From contig KQ482028.1 of assembly GCA_001430745.1 (NCBI GenBank), positions 14,901 to 25,167 of the forward strand: DNA of 10,267 nt. Reading direction: 5' to 3'. This document shows positions 1,057 to 10,267 of the stretch, one piece after another; positions within the stretch are counted from its first letter, which is position 1; every line of letters begins with the position of its first letter. The stretch comes from Auxenochlorella pyrenoidosa. Taxonomy: Eukaryota > Chlorophyta > Trebouxiophyceae > Chlorellales > Chlorellaceae. The notes below the pieces were generated by a model, which saw only the letters and a program-made list of their open reading frames with translations, did no database searches and was not told the origin of the DNA. The position numbers and the translations under genes are program-made.

Positions 1057-4000
1057 TCACAGCGGCGATGCGCGGCCCAGCTTGGCGGCGCTTCCGGCCC
1101 CGCTGGAGTTGGAGGCGGCATCCTCGGCGTCGTACGCCGGGTTGAAGGTGGCGCGCAGGCCGGGCGCGAGGGGGCTCGGTGCGGCGGCGGCCGTGCCGGC
1201 ACGGGCCTGCACGTTGGGTGGACATGACAGTGCATGATCAATGAACAAAGCGCAGGCACGCCCAGCCAGCAGGTGTTGGCATTCCCCTTGCGCGGGCCTG
1301 CAAGGACGACGCAGCGGTGCCCGCCCGCCCACCCTGCGGTGCTGGCGGGCGAGGTAGCAGCGGCGCAGGAGCCAGGCCAGCAGGGGCAGCACCACCAGGG
1401 AGCCCAGCACGCACGCCAGGATAATGACCTGCGGGGCGTGGGCAGGTGTGGACAAGGGTGGTGTAGTGGTGTGGTGGTGGGTGGGGGGGGGGGGGTTGGG
1501 GGGCTTGTGTGGTGGGTGGTTTTTTTTTGGGGGGGGGGGGGGCGGGGGAGCCTGTCAGGGGCGCTGTGCAGAGATAGCCCTGGAAGTGACGAGGGACGGC
1601 ATGCAGGGCCAGGGGATGGGGGGAAGCAGACCGGGCGCGCAGCAGGTGGGAGGAGCGATGCCTTAAACCATACACTCTGAGATTGCATGGCACGGCACGC
1701 GGGCGGCTGCGCTCACATAGTCGTCCACCACCTTCTTCTTCTCGGGGTAGACAGAGGGCCCAGGAGAGGGCGGCGGGGTGGCCGCCACCTGCGGCGTTTG
1801 TGGCAGCAGCCTGCTCCTCAACGGCAGCCAGGCGCCTGATGCATTGTGCGCTTGGCTGAGCGTGGCAGGCACAGGGAGGGCTGGCCAGCACAGGACACTC
1901 GGGCGCAGCAGGAGATGCCAGCAGCGCAAAGCACACAGCGGGGCTGCCTACCGGCGGATCCACCACAGTGACTGGCACGGTGTCGAGGTCGACGGGCACG
2001 GCGGGCGGGGAGGGCACATCGACAGGCAGCAGGGCAGGGGGCAGGGCCGGCACCGTGACCGGCGGCAGCTCCACCGGTGCTGCAGCAGCAGGAGGGGGGG
2101 CAAGAACCGTGACGGTGCCTCTCCTTGCCGACCCTGGGGAATCGACAGTCCCGGGTCCAGTGCAGCTGCAGCATGCAGCAGTTCCCGGGCACGCCGCCCA
2201 GCGGGCTCGCTGGGTTTGCGCCCATGCTGGATTGCGGCAACTGGCTATAAGCTGCAGCATGCCAGCACACAAGCCGGCACAGGCTGCGCCAGGCTGTGGC
2301 GCCTCACCGGGCGGCGGGGCCAGCGCCACGACCACTGCCGGTGGGCTGGTCAGCCCCGAGCAGTTGACCAGGGGGCCTGTGCTCATGGCCGCCAGATAGG
2401 GCCCTCTATAAGGGTCGTTGAAGCCGCCAGCCATGGCGCCCTGGGCAGCGCACAGCTCTTCCTGCGACATCTGGCCGGCCGGGCCGGCAGCGCCCTACAG
2501 GAGGGTTGCTTGTGTGGAGGGTGGTAGAGCGGCACTGCCAGATGGCGCCCTTGCTGAAACCATGTGCCTAGCTCAGCTCACGCCACAGCCAACACGGCGT
2601 GCATGGCGGGAACAAATGTTGGGCAACTGCCGCTTGGCAAACCGACCGCCGCCCTGCTGTGCCTCCGCTGCGCACCTGCTCAATCAGGCGGCGACGCTGC
2701 TCCGCAAACACCGGGCTGAGCTTGCTGCAGCAGGGCGCGGTGCACAAGCAGGGTTCTGGCGGTTTGAAGCAACAAACAAAGCGGATGTGTTCTTTGAGGC
2801 GCACCAACTGCTGCTGCTAAATTCGCCCGCCCCGCTCGCTCGCCGCCCGCGCAGCCCGGCCCAGGCTGCCCCGCCCCCACCTGAGCATGGCCACACTGAG
2901 GGCCTGGTCCTCCTGTGCCTTGCGTCGCTCCTCTGCGGTGGCACACTGCAGGGAGCTCCACGCGCCGGGCAGCATGCTGAAGGTGCCTGCCGAGGGAGGC
3001 GGGCCAGAGGGGTGGGCAGCGGCTGGCAGGGAAGAACCCTCGCAGTGCGGCATGCAGGGCATGCCCGGCGATAAGCAGAAGGGATGGTGGCAGAGAGGAG
3101 CGCTAAGCACGCTGGCCCGAAATGAGAGGCGCAACCCAGGAGTGCCTAGCCTCACCAGCCGGGCAGGGCAGGCAAGAGGTGCCGTCTGCTGCCGAGTAGC
3201 TCCCGGGCTGGCAGGTGCGGCAGGCGGCAGCGCCCGGGACGTCCGCAAAGCGGCCGGGGGCGCACGCCTTGCAGGCCGGGCTGCCGGCTGCAAAGGCATA
3301 GCTGCCCAGTGGGCAGACGGTGCAGCGCAGGGCGCCAGAGGCGGCGTCGCGGCTGGCGTAGCTGCCCGGGAAGCAGAACAGCGCGTCCTGGGGTGCCGGG
3401 CTGCCAGTGGCGGAGGGGGGCAGAGCGGCAGCCAGGATGTCCAAGACCTCGTCAACAGGCACCTGCGGGGAGATGGAGGAGCAGGGGGGCAGAGATCCTG
3501 GCGGGAGAGGCCGGGCTGACGTGCACGCCGGCCGGCATGCCAGGACAGATTTCCGCAACAACTTCAGCTGCACGCTGCAATGGGCGTGCATCTCCTCCTG
3601 TGTCTGCACCAGGCCACACAAAATCCACGAGGGGCATCAGGTACTGAAAGTGCCAGCAGGGAGGCAGCGCAGCCTGCCTGCATCTCCTCCTGCATCCAGA
3701 AGGCCTGCGGCACCGGCAGCAGCCAGTAGGGCTGGCCCAGCGCGGCTGCGGTGTGCCAGAACATGAGGGGCGGGTCGGCGAGGAAAAGGAACTCCACCAC
3801 TGCAGGGGTGGGGTGGGGGTGGGGTGGGGTGGGGGTGAGGGTGAGGTCCGGGGCTTTCAGGCGCGTGGCCCGGGTTGGCAAGAGCAGGGAGAAGCGGCAC
3901 GCGGGCGTGACAAGGGGCTGACAGGGCAGGCCCTGCACAGCGGGGTGCCCGAGAAGTGGCAGCTCACTGCAGCACCCGCAGTTTCCCGCTGCCAGGCTTC

Positions 4001-6459
4001 CCCACCTGCTGTGGCCGGCGCCGAGAAGACGATGTGGGAGAGGCCGGCGCCGTGGGGCCCCATCACCAGCCGTGCCCGCTGGAACAGCACAACAGTGTCG
4101 GAGGGGGACAGGTCGCCCTTGAAAACCACCACCTGCTGCCCCGGAAAGGCGCCGCTGATGGCTGCGGGGCAGGCGGGGCAGCAAGGCAGGCGGCAACGCG
4201 TTTGGGTTTCAGCAAGCGGGTCGGTATGGGCAACATAGCGAGGTGATCGGGGCGCCAACAGTGCAGGCGATCTAGCTGTTTCAGATGGTGGTCCTCCCAT
4301 CGCCCACACACAGCGTGGCACCAGCACACTGCAGCTCAGGAGCTCACCTGCCAGCAGGGCCTCCTCGTTTGCAACACGCCGGCTCGGCTCGTCGGCACGA
4401 GACACATAGATGAGCAGGTCACGCTCGGCCTGCACTTGGACAGCCAACAGTCCAGCCAAAGCAGTTGAAAGCAACGAGTGCATTGCGGGTGGTCAACTGT
4501 TGCGCTAGGGCCAGCAGCCCAGCATGGCGAGCGCTTGCCTCTGGCAGCGTCTGCACCCCCAGGCCGGTGCGGACCAGGCCCAGCGCCTCGCGGGGCGGGG
4601 TGATGCGGGGGGTCGGGGTGGGCACCAGCAGACGGTCTGCAGGCAGGGCAGCAGGCGGGCAGGCGAGCAGGCATGATTGGCAGCAGCGCCTTCATCAATG
4701 TAATGTTCAACTGCCAGCACAGGCATAAGCGCTGGCTGGCAGGCCCCTTGCGGCGGGACAGCTGGCAAGCAGGAGCAGCACGGCGGGTACCTGCGCAGTA
4801 CACGAGGGAGGCGTTGTAGGGCACCACCTGGGTGCGGGGGATGCCCAGCAGCTCCAGGTACTGCAGACAGGGTGGTGGTGGTGTGTGTGTGTGTGTGTGG
4901 TGTGGGGTGGTTTGGGGGGCCGGGGCGGCGGGTGTAAGCTCCGACGGGTGGGAGAACCCCACCCCCGCCCAGGCAGCAAACCTCTCCGTCCCCACGCACA
5001 CAGGAGCGGGCTGCGCGCAGCGGCTATGGGGCGTGTGCACGCGCACAGATACGGCAGCACCTGCACGCAGCGCGGTGCACACCCAGGGGCAGCATGCGAT
5101 GCCTGCCTCCCCACCCAGCCGCACGACTTGCCTCGTACTCGTACGGCTGGCCCCAGGTGAGCAGCTTGACATCAGAGGTCAGCAGCCCGCTGGACTGCAG
5201 CAGCGCCACCCTGCGATTTGGCAGCATGGACGACGGCGTGCATCAGCAGCGGCGGCACGCATCAGCCGGGATTGCGTGGCCGGAGCTTGAGTGTGCTGCG
5301 GCTTCGTGACCGGCGGCATGCCGGCCGGAGCGCAGACCACCTCAGAACTGTGCCCCACTGCCTGTCGGGATCCACCCTCCCCCCTATCCATCTGTCTGCG
5401 GCGAACAACTCCTTACATACCGCCGCCCTATCCCCACCTGGGCAGCGCCTCCTCCAAAAAGTGGTAGTACATGGCACCAAAGCGCTGCACCACGGTGGCA
5501 AGCGTGGAGTAGTGCTCGCAGAACGCCGCAGCCTGCAGGGTGGGGGGTGGGTGGGGGTTAAACCTGGGGTGGGGAGGGCAGGTGGGCGGGCAAGTGGGTG
5601 GGTGGGTGGTGTCCGGGCCACACTGTGGGGCGTTGAGCGGGGGAAAGGGGAAGGGACCGGGAGGCGTGAGCATGGGGTTCAGCGAAGCCTGCCCCAGCAG
5701 CAGGGCGGGGGCCTTGTTTCAGCTGGTGTCGGGCTGACAGGTGCCTGGACGGCATGCACCGCCGGAGATAGGTCCGGCTCAAGAAGGCAGGCGCTGCAGA
5801 AGGCCTGCGCGCACCTGGGGCGGCGTGCGCTGCGGCATGGGCGCCAGCGGCGAGGTGCGGTTGAAGTGGAAGTTGGGTGGGTGGAAGACGCGGCCGGCGG
5901 CGTCATACACCAGCCCCGCCTCGCCCTCCACAAAGGCAGAGTGCAGGGTGGCCACGTACTGCGCCAGGACGGGGGGGGGGGGGGGGGGGGGGGAGGCGGG
6001 TGCGCGGCAGACACGGTGGGCAGCACAGCGAGCAACACCCCTGAGCAAAGCACGCACGAGGAGCCTGCGAGAAAGCGGTCGATGCAGACCCGTGTTAACT
6101 CGGTCCCCCGGCCCCCATCTTGCCTGCTCGCTCGTGGCGGTGAACAGGTTCTCCCCTGTGGCAGACACGTCTTGCAGCAGGTTGAGCTGCGGGGCAAAGT
6201 CGTCCAGCAGGAGATGGTCGAGGGTCTTGGGTGACGGCCGGGCAAACGGCTGCTGCGGCGGGCCGACAATGCCGTACTGCCAGCCCTGGGCCGCCGACAT
6301 GTCTGTCACAATCTGCCAGTCCCATGGGGCGCCCAGCTGCTGTGCGGCAGTGATGGAAGGGCCCAGCAGGCAGGCCGCTAGCAGCGCTGCGAGCGCCAGG
6401 GGTGGCGCACGCGGCGGCCAGGGGCGGCGGCGTGCTGGGCCGCCCATCGGTGGCGCCAT
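1057..6459 (-). CDS. GT61 glycosyltransferase fused to ephrin-receptor-like Cys-rich repeats and a C-terminal transmembrane anchor
   Basis: Exons, 5' to 3' on the minus strand: 6459-6124, 5958-5815, 5532-5438, 5210-5132, 4860-4791, 4636-4539, 4429-4348, 4161-4006, 3799-3678, 3462-3156, 2986-2881, 2724-2676, 2470-2308, 2133-1952, 1788-1717, 1428-1333, 1206-1057. They sum to 2307 nt (768 aa plus stop) with every phase agreeing. Residues 10-39 are a basic n-region and hydrophobic core ending TAA-QQ, a signal peptide or anchor. The GT61 domain (about 113-410) carries YYHFLEE (182-188), the split D-RLLVP (242-247), SRADEPSRRVANE (basic segment followed by NE) and MGPHGAGL (335-342), the hallmark HGAGL. 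Residues 424-511 hold ten Cys in CxxC-spaced ephrin-receptor-like (GCC2/GCC3) repeats. A helical linker, a Pro/Val-rich stalk (about 596-680), a TM helix (688-708) and a tail with FNPAYD follow. GT61 enzymes transfer sugars such as xylose, arabinose or GlcNAc in the ER/Golgi; acceptor and donor here are unknown. A longer start at 6522 is possible. Least certain: the 3' end of exon 9. Confidence 0.85.
1207..1716 (-). other. Last two introns flanking the transmembrane exon
   Basis: Intron 16 (1207-1332) and intron 15 (1429-1716) bracket exon 16 (1333-1428), which encodes exactly the transmembrane helix and its basic stop-transfer residues RRCYLARQHRR. Both flanking introns are phase 0. Skipping this 96-nt exon would therefore keep the frame and remove the membrane anchor. 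Donors are TAT|GTGAGC and AGG|GTGGGC; acceptors are CGCAG|GTC and GTGCAG|GCC. The alternative donor two bases upstream within CGCAGGGTGG would break the FNPAYD tail frame, so AGG|GTGGGC was chosen. Confidence 0.7.
1453..1552. repeat. G/GT-rich low-complexity tract with G13, T9 and G14 runs (intron 15)
   Basis: Plus-strand sequence inside intron 15 is almost entirely G and T. It has a run of 13 G at 1483-1495, a run of 9 T at 1520-1528 and a run of 14 G at 1529-1542. Read in the transcript direction it is C/A-rich and lies upstream of the exon 16 acceptor, so part of it can serve as the polypyrimidine tract. Runs of this kind are prone to slippage and sequencing error. Confidence 0.8.
2134..2307 (-). 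other. Intron 13: frame-neutral, stop-free intron
   Basis: The intron is 174 nt (3n), with donor CCCG|GTGAGG and acceptor CCCCAG|GG. The exon 13 reading frame stays open through it into exon 14, so retention would insert 58 residues, notably rich in Cys and Ala, between the linker and the Pro/Val-rich stalk. The splice model is preferred because both signals are good and the inserted sequence looks unlike the flanking stalk, but retention cannot be excluded from sequence. Confidence 0.55.
3587..3692. repeat. 14-bp direct repeat at the exon 9/intron 9 border (TGCATCTCCTCCTG)
   Basis: The 14-mer TGCATCTCCTCCTG occurs at 3679-3692, at the 3' end of exon 9 where it encodes QEEMQ, and again at 3587-3600 inside intron 9, 92 bases away. 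The intronic copy reads QEEMH in the frame continuous with exon 10. This makes the position of the exon 9 donor less certain than the others. Confidence 0.6.
3676..3677 (-). other. Putative GC splice donor of intron 9
   Basis: Exon 9 ends ATGCAG|GCAGGC and exon 10 begins VPVDEVLDIL in phase 0, giving EEMQ-VPVDEV. No GT occurs immediately after the exon. A GT further on (CTTTCA|GTACCT, 11 codons later, also phase 0) is an alternative that would insert AGCAASLLALS. This is the weakest of the four GC calls because position +4 is G rather than A. Confidence 0.45.
3808..3845. repeat. GGGGT-type G-rich tract in intron 8 (potential G-quadruplex)
   Basis: The plus strand carries at least seven G-runs of four or five separated by single T bases, just upstream (in transcript sense) of the exon 9 acceptor CCTGCAG|TGG. 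The transcript carries the C-rich complement, which acts as the polypyrimidine tract. The DNA plus strand could fold as a G-quadruplex. Confidence 0.7.
4537..4538 (-). other. GC splice donor of intron 6
   Basis: Exon 6 ends CCAGAG|GCAAGC and exon 7 begins after GTGCAG at GCCGAGCGTGAC in phase 0, giving VQTLPE-AERDLLIYVSR, as expected for GT61. The next GT downstream (CAACA|GTTGAC) has the wrong phase. GCAAG matches the GC-AG donor consensus. Confidence 0.75.
4871..4919. repeat. GT microsatellite and G-rich tract in intron 4
   Basis: GGT triplets lead into nine GT dinucleotide units (4881-4898), then TGGGG and GGGGGG runs. The tract sits next to the exon 5 acceptor (CTGTCTGCAG|TAC on the minus strand) and is probably length-polymorphic. 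Confidence 0.85.
5130..5131 (-). other. GC splice donor of intron 4
   Basis: Exon 4 ends TACGAG|GCAAGT, a perfect GC-AG donor consensus. Exon 5 begins TACCTGGAGCTG in phase 0, giving QPYEYE-YLELLGIPRTQVV, in keeping with the GT61 fold. No in-phase GT lies at the boundary. Confidence 0.8.
5538..5616. repeat. GGGT/GGTG-rich tract in intron 2
   Basis: A plus-strand tract of repeated GGGTGGG-like units abuts the exon 3 acceptor (CCCTGCAG|GCT on the minus strand). It is C-rich in the transcript and has several possible four-run G-quadruplex groupings on the plus strand. Confidence 0.7.
5971..5993. repeat. Run of 23 consecutive G (C23 in the transcript) in intron 1
   Basis: Twenty-three uninterrupted G bases on the plus strand, followed by A and more G. 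On the minus strand this is C23 ending 12 bases before the exon 2 acceptor TGGCGCAG|TAC, so it occupies the polypyrimidine-tract position. The exact length is likely unreliable. Confidence 0.9.
6122..6123 (-). other. GC splice donor of intron 1
   Basis: Exon 1 ends GAGCAG|GCAAGA in phase 0 and exon 2 starts TACGTGGCCACC, giving FTATSEQ-YVATLHSAFVEG. The nearest downstream GT (ACCGA|GTTAAC) would leave about 9 unrelated codons and the wrong phase. GCAAG matches the GC donor consensus. Confidence 0.75.
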
Positions 6460-7089: not shown

Positions 7090-8638
7090 ATGGCCACGCG
7101 CGGCCGCCATGCTCGTGATGACGGGCAGAAGGAGTTCACTGGTCGGGTGCACCACTGGTCGTACGCCTGGGTCACCTCCAAGCAGCCCAAAACAAAGGAG
7201 CTCAAGTTCCGTCGTTGGCAGCAGACAGGTGGGGCGGGACATGGAGGCTGAGAAATGCCAGTGGCTTGCTGGCTTTGCTGATGCGCTCACAGTCCTCCTC
7301 ATCGAATCGCTGGCAGCCTGCCAGGTTGCCTTGATGTTGCTCACCCCTTCCAGCCACATGACGGTGCAGTCGCCATCTGCCGGCTAGGTTGACAGTCCTT
7401 TCACCTCGTCGTTCCCTTCCCGATGCTGTTGAGCATCAAGCCGACAGCGGGTAGTCAGGCGGTCTGGCCTGTCTGCGCCGTGCCGCTTGTGCAACAACAG
7501 CCGGGTGACGTCTGTGTCCCAGGCCCTCAACTTGCAGACGAGCGGCTACCAGAGCTGGCGGGGCCACGGCACTCATACATTGAGCCGGTGCGGTGCAGGG
7601 GCTGCTCCCCCTTGCTGGCAACCGGCTGTGGTGGCTGGCGGCTCTGCCTGCAAAAGAGGCGCTCCGATCTCAGGGCGGATTGTTCATCTCAGGTCTCTGC
7701 ACAGACGCGGTCGGCTACTGCTCCCAACGCTGCCACTCGTCATTCGCTTCTCTCACTCCATGCCCCTGCAGGTGAAGGACCCCGATGCCAAGCCGTACCC
7801 GCGCATGGTGGCGCCGGTGTCGGGCGGCGGAGCCATGCCGGTGTCGGCCGCCATGGGCATGAAGCGCGGCAAGTCGCAGGTGCGTCCCGTGTGCCCTTGC
7901 CCTCATTTCTGTGCTTTGTCATTTCTGCGTCACCGCGCTCCGCTGCGCTTGCCCCTGGTCAGGCAGGATAATCAGGGTCAGGTATGCTTTGGGTCCTGCC
8001 TGCAAGTCCCTCTGTTGTGGCGCTGCAAGGGAGGGCAGTGTTGCTGTGTATGAGGGGTGGCGGCATGGTACTGCGGCACAGGAATCGCGGCAGCGGGAGC
8101 ATGGTCGGCACAGCCGGCGGTCATGCCACCATGTTGTGCCCCGCCATCGTGCAGCGCCCCACCCTGCCTTGCCCCTCTGCATGCGCAGGCCGCACTCAAC
8201 GGCACCGGCGGGGCGGCTCCAGCAGCGCAGGCGCCGGCTGCGCCAGCGCCGCCGGCCCCCAAAATTAAGCTCAAGTTCACTCTGGGCCAGCGGCTGGACC
8301 AGGCCACGGCTGGCGTGGATGCCATCAGCGGCTTTGTGGCCAACCCCGCGGGGCAGGCACCGGCAGCAGCAGGGGCAGCAGCAGCAGGGAACCGGGCAGC
8401 CGCTGCACCAGCAGCGGTGGCAGGGGCGCCGCCGCAGGGCCCAGCGGCGGGAGCAGCAGCATTGCAGTCGGTGGCGCCACCGCCCGGAGTTGCGGCTGCT
8501 CCGCTGCAGCAACATCAAACGCAACCGCAAGGGCAGCCAGGCTGGCCTCATGGGGTCGCAGCAGCTCCACAGCAGCAAGGGCCGCCAGCGGGAGGGGCGC
8601 CCCTTCAAGGGCAGCCCTACTCGCGGCCCCCTGTCTGA
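7090..8638 (+). CDS. Small nuclear-type protein with possible BCL7-like N-terminal motif (SWI/SNF subunit candidate)
   Basis: Four exons are proposed: 7090-7228, 7523-7587 (acceptor possibly 7538), 7772-7879 and 8189-8638. They total 762 nt (253 aa plus stop) in consistent phase. The N-terminus is basic, with RHARDDGQKE (6-15), and then a Trp motif: HHWSYAWVTS (21-30), eight residues later LKFRRWQQT (38-46). BCL7 proteins of animal SWI/SNF complexes and their plant homologues (BDH1/2) share R-x-R-x-K-D-D, W-x3-W-V-T and L-x-I/F-x-K-W in the same order and similar spacing, so a BCL7-like chromatin role is proposed tentatively. Residues 69-104 contain KPYPRMVAP and KRGKSQ. PKIKLKFTLGQ (about 128-138) is a short basic motif common in chromatin proteins. 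The rest (about 150-253) is Ala/Gln/Pro/Gly-rich and disordered. Exon 2 is the least certain part. A plain nuclear protein of unknown family remains the alternative. Confidence 0.65.
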
Positions 8639-9028
8639 ACGCATGCAGCCTTCGCCCTCACGCCCCACTTACTGGATGCTACCGTTGCATTCTCGTGATC
8701 TGCAATGGCAAGCAAGCACAACAGGGGCCGAACAGGCTCACAAATGCGATGCCATCAGGTCATCATGTCCTAGCGGTGGCTTGCGTACTCCGTACTTGGG
8801 CAGAGAAAGCGAGGGAGCTTTGACTGCAGTTGCCCAAACCATGGCGAACTGGATGCTGTACAGATGCTGGAGCAGCTGGTCGCTGCAGGTGGCACAAGGT
8901 AGTGGCATCTCGAAGCTGGCTGCCTGCGCTCTGCGTGTCCCGCCACTGCCGCCGCCGCAGCGCGCCGCTGTCCTGAGGCCTACAGCGCCCGCCTGCTACA
9001 ACGTAGACACTACTTCTGTCACGAAACC
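8639..9028. promoter_or_regulatory. Head-to-tail intergenic region: 3' UTR then NUP85 promoter/5' UTR
   Basis: The 390 bases lie between the stop of the BCL7-like gene and the NUP85 start. No TGTAA polyadenylation signal, TATA box or repeat was recognised. Open frames crossing it are composition-driven and match no family. Confidence 0.45.
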
Positions 9029-10267
9029 ATGGATGGCGAGCCTGTGACGCTGGCTGCCGTGCCAGCGGCCAAGGGCGCCCGTCTGGCCATCAGCTGGGGC
9101 CTCGGCAACGAGCTGCATGTTGTGGATCTGCATGAAATGGCGGCATCGGCTTCCCAGACCGAGTCCACGGCCTCGGTTGTGCAGTGGTGAGCTTTGAGCG
9201 CGCGCCATCACCGCCCAGAGCGCCTTCTTCGCTTTTGTGATACTTTTCTTCTCACATCGGATGCTCGCATTGCGATATTGCTGTCTTCATCCCTTCTGCA
9301 GGGGCTCCCTGTCCGCCGGACAACGCCGTATCGCCTACGACTCTCTGGGCGCCTACCAGCAGCTGCAGCAGACGGCACTTGAGCCCTTGACGCCCGATGC
9401 TTGGGCCCAGGCCGCCCGGTACAGCAAGACGGTCGGTGCGGTGCTGGCGGCAGACGGCGTCAGGTGGGGCGGGGAGAGCTTGGCTTGCTTTCTTTGCTGT
9501 GGTTTTAGGTTGTGTTGATATTGTGTGACGACGGCGCAGCAGGATTGCGCCCAAAAGAATCCAAAGTCGCTGTACGGCGCTGGCTTCTGCCCTCCAGCCA
9601 CACCTGCTAGCTGTCTCCCTCTCCCTGTGCAGGGGCGCTGAGGCCACTGCCGAGGAGCTGGCCACCCTCCAAGAGCGCGCCCTGTGGGAGCTGCTGGCGC
9701 TCTTCTTCCTGGAATCATCCAGTGGCGGCGGCATGCAGGGCTGGGCGGCACAGGCGAGGCTGGGCGGCGGCTGGGCGGGCTTTTTGGTGGCGGTGAATTT
9801 GACACAGTCGGTGTGCCGGCTTGCTCTCCAGGGCGCTGTCAGCCTCTGCACCCTCAGCTGCCCTGTCAACTGCGCGCGCCCTGTGGTTTGGTCAACCCGT
9901 CTGTGCCCATGAGAGAGGCCCTCCCTGCTGGGTGCCCACCTGGTGGCAAGCCCTGAAGATGCTCCACTGCCACCTCCCTTGCGCAGGACCTGGCGGGCTG
10001 GCTGCGCGGCAACGCCGCCGCGGTGGCGTGCGGCGTGGGCGCCGCGCCGCTGCCGCCGCAGCTCGCAGCGGCGCTGCGAGAGGCGGCCCTCCCCGAGGCA
10101 GACCCCCAGTACTGGCCCACCCTGGCCCGCCTGGTGGCCCTGGGCTGGATTGAGGACGCGGTAGAGCTGCTGGGCCTGCATTCGGCATGGCTGCGGTACG
10201 ACGGAGGCGCCGCGGGCGAGGGCGCCGCCGGCGACGAGGCCGCGCGCGCCGCGGTGGCGGCGCTGGA
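9029..10267 (+). CDS. NUP85: Nucleoporin NUP85 (Nup107-160 Y-complex scaffold), 5' part
   Basis: Exons: 9029-9186, 9302-9463, 9633-9792 and 9987 to beyond the window edge, about 253 codons visible. The start MDGEPVTLAAVP followed by ISWGLGNELHVVD mirrors the N-terminus of animal NUP85, which has an LDGEP...VTL segment and then a WGPG-type turn. Exon 2 gives ARYSKTVGAVLAAD, the SKNYRSVI-like segment. Exon 3 gives LQERALWELLALFFLE, the W-x-L-x-x-LFF helix typical of plant and animal NUP85. Exon 4 gives DLAGWLRGN and PQYWPTLARLVALGWIEDAVELL, the alpha-solenoid region closest to plant NUP85. The protein is a structural member of the nuclear pore outer ring (Y-complex, ACE1 fold). The ATG at 9029 fits the family start. 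Exon 3's end is uncertain: GCG|GTGAAT at 9792 keeps phase 0 with exon 4, while CCA|GTGGCG at 9721 would require another exon. Confidence 0.85.

Follow-up and report, generated by a model that had tools for sequence, protein, structure and literature searches.

Does the gene on the minus strand of a 10,267-nucleotide stretch of the Auxenochlorella pyrenoidosa genome (GenBank assembly GCA_001430745.1, contig KQ482028.1, positions 14,901 to 25,167; hereafter the window) encode a working glycosyltransferase, a receptor built on a retired one, or two proteins wrongly joined? The preliminary description had read it as a receptor-like fusion of a GT61 glycosyltransferase with ephrin-receptor-like repeats and a C-terminal membrane anchor. 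An exon-by-exon rebuild, running from 6459 to 1057, bore out its phase-consistent 17-exon model, although the product came to 758 amino acids rather than 768. Against Pfam, this 758-residue model exceeded the curated cut-offs for both PF04577 (GT61; residues 182-355, E 5.2e-19, 69.3 bits, cut-off 27) and PF07699 (Ephrin_rec_like; two stretches, E 7.1e-12, 45.4 bits, cut-off 23.1), and alongside these profile matches both a GT-B fold and a Cys-ladder fold were present. The motifs described earlier (YYHFLEE, SRADEPSRR, GPHGAGL, and FNPAYD) were all recovered, as were the ten CxxC-spaced cysteines at residues 424-511, which comprise four CxxC pairs and two single Cys. Likewise upheld was the order of Pro-rich stalk, transmembrane helix, and tail: in 19-residue windows, hydropathy peaked at starts 678 (mean 2.68) and 21 (mean 2.05), and the structure model of the relative P0001 has a helix at 676-717. 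With signal peptide and transmembrane helix assigned from hydropathy, the predicted topology is type I, with a signal peptide and a single C-terminal transmembrane segment. Tentatively, and with a confidence a little short of even, we read the product as a membrane-tethered, atypical GT61 enzyme of the late secretory pathway or cell surface.

The domain order recurs in other algae, namely Micractinium, Chlorella vulgaris, Chloropicon, Pycnococcus, Chlamydomonas sp. UWO 241, and the haptophyte Pavlova. Each protein search scored about 8000 candidates, and absence from other organisms is not to be read from them; among the candidates scored, the nearest matches were from Micractinium (672 of 758 residues identical in P0001, from Micractinium sp. 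CCAP 211/92, and 662 of 758 in P0002, from M. tetrahymenae), with further relatives from C. vulgaris, UWO 241, Chloropicon primus, Pycnococcus provasolii, and the haptophyte Pavlova lutheri. By its nearest matches, the window comes from a Micractinium-like alga. All 38 aligned members matched GT61, and 33 of the 38 matched PF07699 at E 0.001. Among family rows long enough to judge, 49 of 52 carried both parts, with at least three CxxC after the glycosyltransferase (GT) domain; the exceptions were P0017, which has a PF07699 match despite its fewer CxxC, P0043, and P0101. When 54 GT domains were placed in a tree, the family rows, 46 in number, fell into one clade (support 98/97), separate from eight GT61 rows of bacterial, amoebal, and other origin; P0007, P0008, P0013, P0015, and P0077 were left out of this tree, and P0102 and P0103 cover less than half of its columns. 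The order of the outgroups is unsure because several of their branches are long. On sequence evidence, then, the pairing of GT61 with the Cys module is old and wide across algal groups, reaching a haptophyte. A recent, strain-specific fusion is ruled out by the single clade of 46 rows, and bacterial contamination of the GT part by the 16 introns and the algal identity of the nearest named relatives.

The junctions between exons bear on whether this is one gene at all. Four of the 16 introns (1, 4, 6, and 9) start with GC (6123-6122, 5131-5130, 4538-4537, and 3677-3676) and the other 12 with GT, so that the GC share lies far over the usual one of about 1%. Nonetheless, 15 of the 16 junctions are gap-free within three residues between the model and P0001 and P0002, the exception being junction 14/15 (one and two extra residues, respectively), and the four GC junctions are gap-free in P0003 and P0004 as well. 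At the protein level this backs the GC donors, with the reservation that the gene models of the relatives are themselves predictions. A wrong merger of two adjoining genes would find encouragement in the weak GC donor (GCAGGC) at the end of exon 9 and in P0036, a 379-residue TRINITY isoform (i8) from a relative that diverges and stops within about one residue of the exon 9/10 junction. However, residues match across that junction in P0001-P0004, most family rows carry both parts, and the junction is spanned by two transcriptome-named open reading frames, P0018 (TRINITY name) and P0023 (MMETSP1392 name), each of which holds both GT61 and PF07699. We consider such a merger extremely improbable and, given the relatives that span the junction, have ruled it out. 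The preliminary description had named, as a challenge to its model, two separate transcripts with the break between exon 9 and exon 10; P0018 and P0023 weigh against them, while the stop in P0036 leans the other way: it may reflect intron retention or a real short, soluble, GT61-only form in that relative, and a GT61-only isoform is thus possible.

The nucleotide-binding pocket sets the family apart. Residue counts were taken over 62 family rows, hand-picked from search matches and including fragments. In the published GT61 triad N-R-R, which binds UDP, the Asn position (M181 in the model) is Met in 54 of the 55 covering rows and Gln in the other one, whereas Asn stands there in 10 of 15 GT61 rows from outside the family; profile comparison also pairs Met with Asn here, although in P0038 and P0040, which start at this Met, it may be merely a start codon. 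By sequence alignment, the two UDP-phosphate-binding Arg of the triad are retained (R285 in 58/58 and R291 in 58/59 covering rows), as is H184, the proposed catalytic His equivalent to EOGT H248 and POMGNT2 H166 (55/55). The HGAGL part of the pocket is kept as well. The family thus departs from the canonical N-R-R motif, in which Asn lies three residues before His. According to PMC13123520, of which part of the text was available, the EOGT variants N245D and N245Q are inactive, and the Met variant is not among the GT61 classes named in that part. With this substitution, a standard GT61 enzyme can be less readily assumed. It is also one point in favor of a pseudo-glycosyltransferase, whose GT61 fold would have lost catalysis and would bind glycans or nucleotide sugars as the ectodomain of a receptor or adhesion protein, with the Cys module used as in receptors and mastigoneme proteins. 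That possibility is real but rather unlikely in our estimation. The His and both Arg are almost always kept, and the triad Asn is itself not universal, because proteobacterial GT61 proteins have Gly in its place (PMC13123520), as in row P0081. Further, Pfam returned no signalling domain on the 758-residue model, and the label "receptor-like" would derive solely from the Cys module and the tail.

The means of attachment to the membrane varied among the rows. A transmembrane helix followed by an NPx[F/Y] tail, which we infer to be cytosolic, occurs in 18 of 19 Chlorella/Micractinium-type rows (the window model, P0001-P0016, and P0022), with a probability of 0.001-0.02 per row in shuffled tails when related rows are treated separately. 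The fourteen tail-motif rows in the tree group together with P0017, at a support of only 87/71. In 13 rows (P0018, P0020, P0021, P0030, P0034, P0035 from Pavlova, P0039, and P0091-P0096, with P0095 from Chloropicon), the hydrophobic stretch stops 0-2 residues before the C-terminus, resembling by hydropathy a glycosylphosphatidylinositol (GPI) signal, while in P0099, P0100, P0102, and P0103 a hydrophobic helix is followed by a short tail (12-17 residues); the C-terminus of P0037 (an HGACL variant) lay outside the scoring. To judge from these rows, what is constant is GT61 plus the Cys module, and what varies is the way of holding it to the membrane. A surface protein could well have these anchors and the NPx[F/Y] tail, which to that extent also suit a pseudo-glycosyltransferase. 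Searches of the genome for PF18116 and PF00640 (SNX17-type and PTB adaptors) gave no match, but no control genome matched either, hence this is no evidence of absence; a search for EH domains found one exon. Separately, P0063 (1417 aa) combines ephrin-receptor-like repeats with NPMF near its C-terminus (residue 1403), which may be chance.

Among known systems, POMGNT2, the GT61 protein O-mannose beta-1,4-GlcNAc transferase, offered both a sequence match and the best structural match. By alignment it shares the two Arg and the His, while its Asn163 aligns with the Met of the algal family, and the algal protein adds the Cys module, the stalk, and the C-terminal anchor; POMGNT2 has a C-terminal FnIII domain and an N-terminal anchor of its own. 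EOGT, the EGF-specific O-GlcNAc transferase of GT61, matched weakly by sequence (E 0.67; 2.2e-6 by profile) and has the Arg-Arg-His pocket in common with the family. It was absent from the structural matches listed by VIA-align, which has no bearing on its fold. Unlike the algal proteins, it is a protein of the endoplasmic reticulum (ER) with a signal sequence, HDEL, and N-R-R, and the available part of PMC13123520 does not describe Cys repeats in it. Plant GT61 enzymes and plant and microalgal core beta-1,2-xylosyltransferases belong to the same CAZy family (PMC12507850, likewise available in part, and PMC13123520); the plant enzymes are described as N-R-R (PMC13123520), unlike the algal family, a comparison made by description. 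The protein could also be an ordinary ER/Golgi enzyme, such as a pentosyltransferase acting on the N-glycan core, whose type I anchor and accessory domain are incidental, as the microalgal xylosyltransferases and the POMGNT2-like fold would allow. We think this improbable, given that Met replaces the triad Asn, that several rows have GPI-like ends, and that at least three other GT61 loci in the genome, with no listed Cys-module match nearby, could serve instead.

The Cys module has its own closest counterparts in the Chlamydomonas mastigoneme protein Mst1 and in ELAPOR1, which resemble it in both sequence and fold, a likeness in keeping with a pseudo-glycosyltransferase; Mst1 has more ephrin-receptor-like repeats than the algal protein. 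We know of no glycosyltransferase domain in Mst1 or ELAPOR1, and of no ephrin-receptor-like module in plant GT61 enzymes. The Y-R-R GT61 proteins reported from Chlorella sorokiniana and Chloropicon primus (PMC13123520) come from the same or close lineages and also lack the Asn, with Tyr there versus Met here; they are possibly the same family, and the C. primus row P0095 has Met three residues before His. According to the accessible part of PMC3797821, the green and red algal genomes surveyed there yielded no GT61 orthologue of the N-glycan enzyme of plants.

An atypical, membrane-tethered enzyme is favored over a pseudo-enzyme receptor because the two Arg and the His are so strictly kept. In such a protein, the N-terminal signal peptide would route the GT61 domain and Cys module to the lumen or the outside, and the C-terminal anchor would hold the protein on the membrane. 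The modified pocket would bind a nucleotide sugar or glycan, and sugar would be transferred to wall or surface glycoconjugates. The ephrin-receptor-like module, rigid and linked by disulfides, would act as a spacer or contact surface and keep the catalytic domain clear of the membrane. In the relatives from Chlorella, trafficking or recycling would be under the control of the NPx[F/Y] tail. Several observations weigh against this picture. To our knowledge, a supply of nucleotide sugars outside the cell is not established. The Asn-to-Met change falls on the residue at which the EOGT variants N245D and N245Q are inactive. P0017 is without the tail motif, and P0031, P0032, and P0038 have a transmembrane helix but no motif, P0031 and P0032 sitting in the branch that neighbors the tail-motif group. 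Finally, none of the four scored Chlamydomonas-group rows (P0023, P0024, P0025, and P0097) has a clear C-terminal anchor, their best hydropathy window reaching 1.52 (P0023). The preliminary description's interpretation fits as regards the fusion, the predicted type I topology, the algal origin, and the phrase "wall-glycan modifying or glycan-sensing"; it did not foresee the breadth of the family, the variety of anchors, or the Asn-to-Met change. More speculatively, and with considerable doubt on our part, the family may be an ancient surface-displayed one, with GPI-like or transmembrane anchors, in which the UDP-binding Asn gave way to Met once before the radiation. A Golgi-type glycosyltransferase would thereby have become either an extracellular enzyme that uses another donor or a receptor for glycans, and the Chlorella lineage would have gained an endocytic NPx[F/Y] tail.

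Table 1. The GT61 fusion gene and its parts, in window positions
Feature	Positions	Strand	Content	Basis
Whole coding region	1057..6459	-	17 exons, phases consistent, 758 aa + stop	Exon-by-exon rebuild
Exon 1	6124..6459	-	Signal peptide-like start: hydrophobic segment 6399-6343, then QQ	Hydropathy only
Exon 2	5815..5958	-		
Exon 3	5438..5532	-	M181 codon 5472-5470 (N-R-R Asn position); H184 codon 5463-5461 (proposed catalytic His)	Roles per PMC13123520 (available part)
Exon 4	5132..5210	-		
Exon 5	4791..4860	-		
Exon 6	4539..4636	-		
Exon 7	4348..4429	-	YVSR...SRRVANE; triad Arg: R285 codon 4399-4397, R291 codon 4381-4379	Alignment (triad Arg)
Exon 8	4006..4161	-	GPHGAGL at 4060-4040	
Exon 9	3678..3799	-	End of GT domain	
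Exon 10	3156..3462	-	Cys-rich ephrin-receptor-like module, C424 (codon from 3375) to C494 (codon to 3163)	
Exon 11	2881..2986	-	Last Cys of module, C511 (codon 2945-2943); conserved helices begin	
Exon 12	2676..2724	-	Conserved KLSPVFA segment, 2723-2703	
Exon 13	2308..2494	-	Stalk; Cys563 nearly invariant	
Exon 14	1952..2079	-	Pro-rich stalk; low pLDDT (predicted local distance difference test)	P0001 structure model (pLDDT)
Exon 15	1717..1788	-	Pro-rich stalk reaching membrane	
Exon 16	1333..1428	-	Predicted transmembrane helix 1428-1366	
Exon 17	1057..1206	-	Predicted cytosolic tail; NPAYD at 1143-1129	
Pfam GT61 match region	3797..5472	-	Residues 182-355 plus M181, exons 3-9	

Elsewhere in the 51.6-Mb genome searched (65 contigs, the window being C39:14901-25167), a family profile search found at least four GT61 loci including the fusion gene, and among the 26 Ephrin_rec_like matches listed, none lay close to the remaining three loci, with more than 600 kb to the nearest match sharing a contig. 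A weak match to GT-domain residues 322-382 at C47:904795-904977 on the plus strand (E 0.0011) is possibly another GT61-like exon, and the listed Cys-module matches on C47 begin about 41 kb from it. Clustered ephrin-receptor-like repeats on contigs C59, C16, C10, C47, C2, C64, and C3 likely belong to large surface proteins. Within the window, the plus strand carries three further coding regions. The gene at 7091-8638, head-to-head with the GT61 gene, starts MATRGRHARDDGQKEFTGRV and gave no Pfam match at E 0.01 in the two raw pieces tested; a multi-exon gene at 9028-10267 leaves the window, its hand-joined part matching the Pfam Nup85 nucleoporin (E 7.9e-8); and positions 2-658 hold a low-complexity C-terminal coding end, Gln/Pro/Ala-rich and then acidic, with no Pfam match at E 0.01.

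The GT61 and ephrin-receptor-like domains are each already known, and the architecture is already visible in databases, because precomputed Pfam labels give both domains on many relatives; in the open-access literature, no paper was found by title or abstract that pairs them. Only a small number of the enzymes behind Chlorella-type walls, with their unusual glycans, have been assigned. The microalgal N-glycan arabinosyltransferases are still to be found, according to the available part of PMC12507850. The GT61 fusion may function in sugar transfer or in glycan sensing, and as a conserved, anchored GT61 variant it is a concrete candidate for the modification or sensing of wall or surface glycans. 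The family-wide change from Asn to Met, in turn, provides a direct test of the recent proposal that N-R-R marks catalytically active GT61 proteins.
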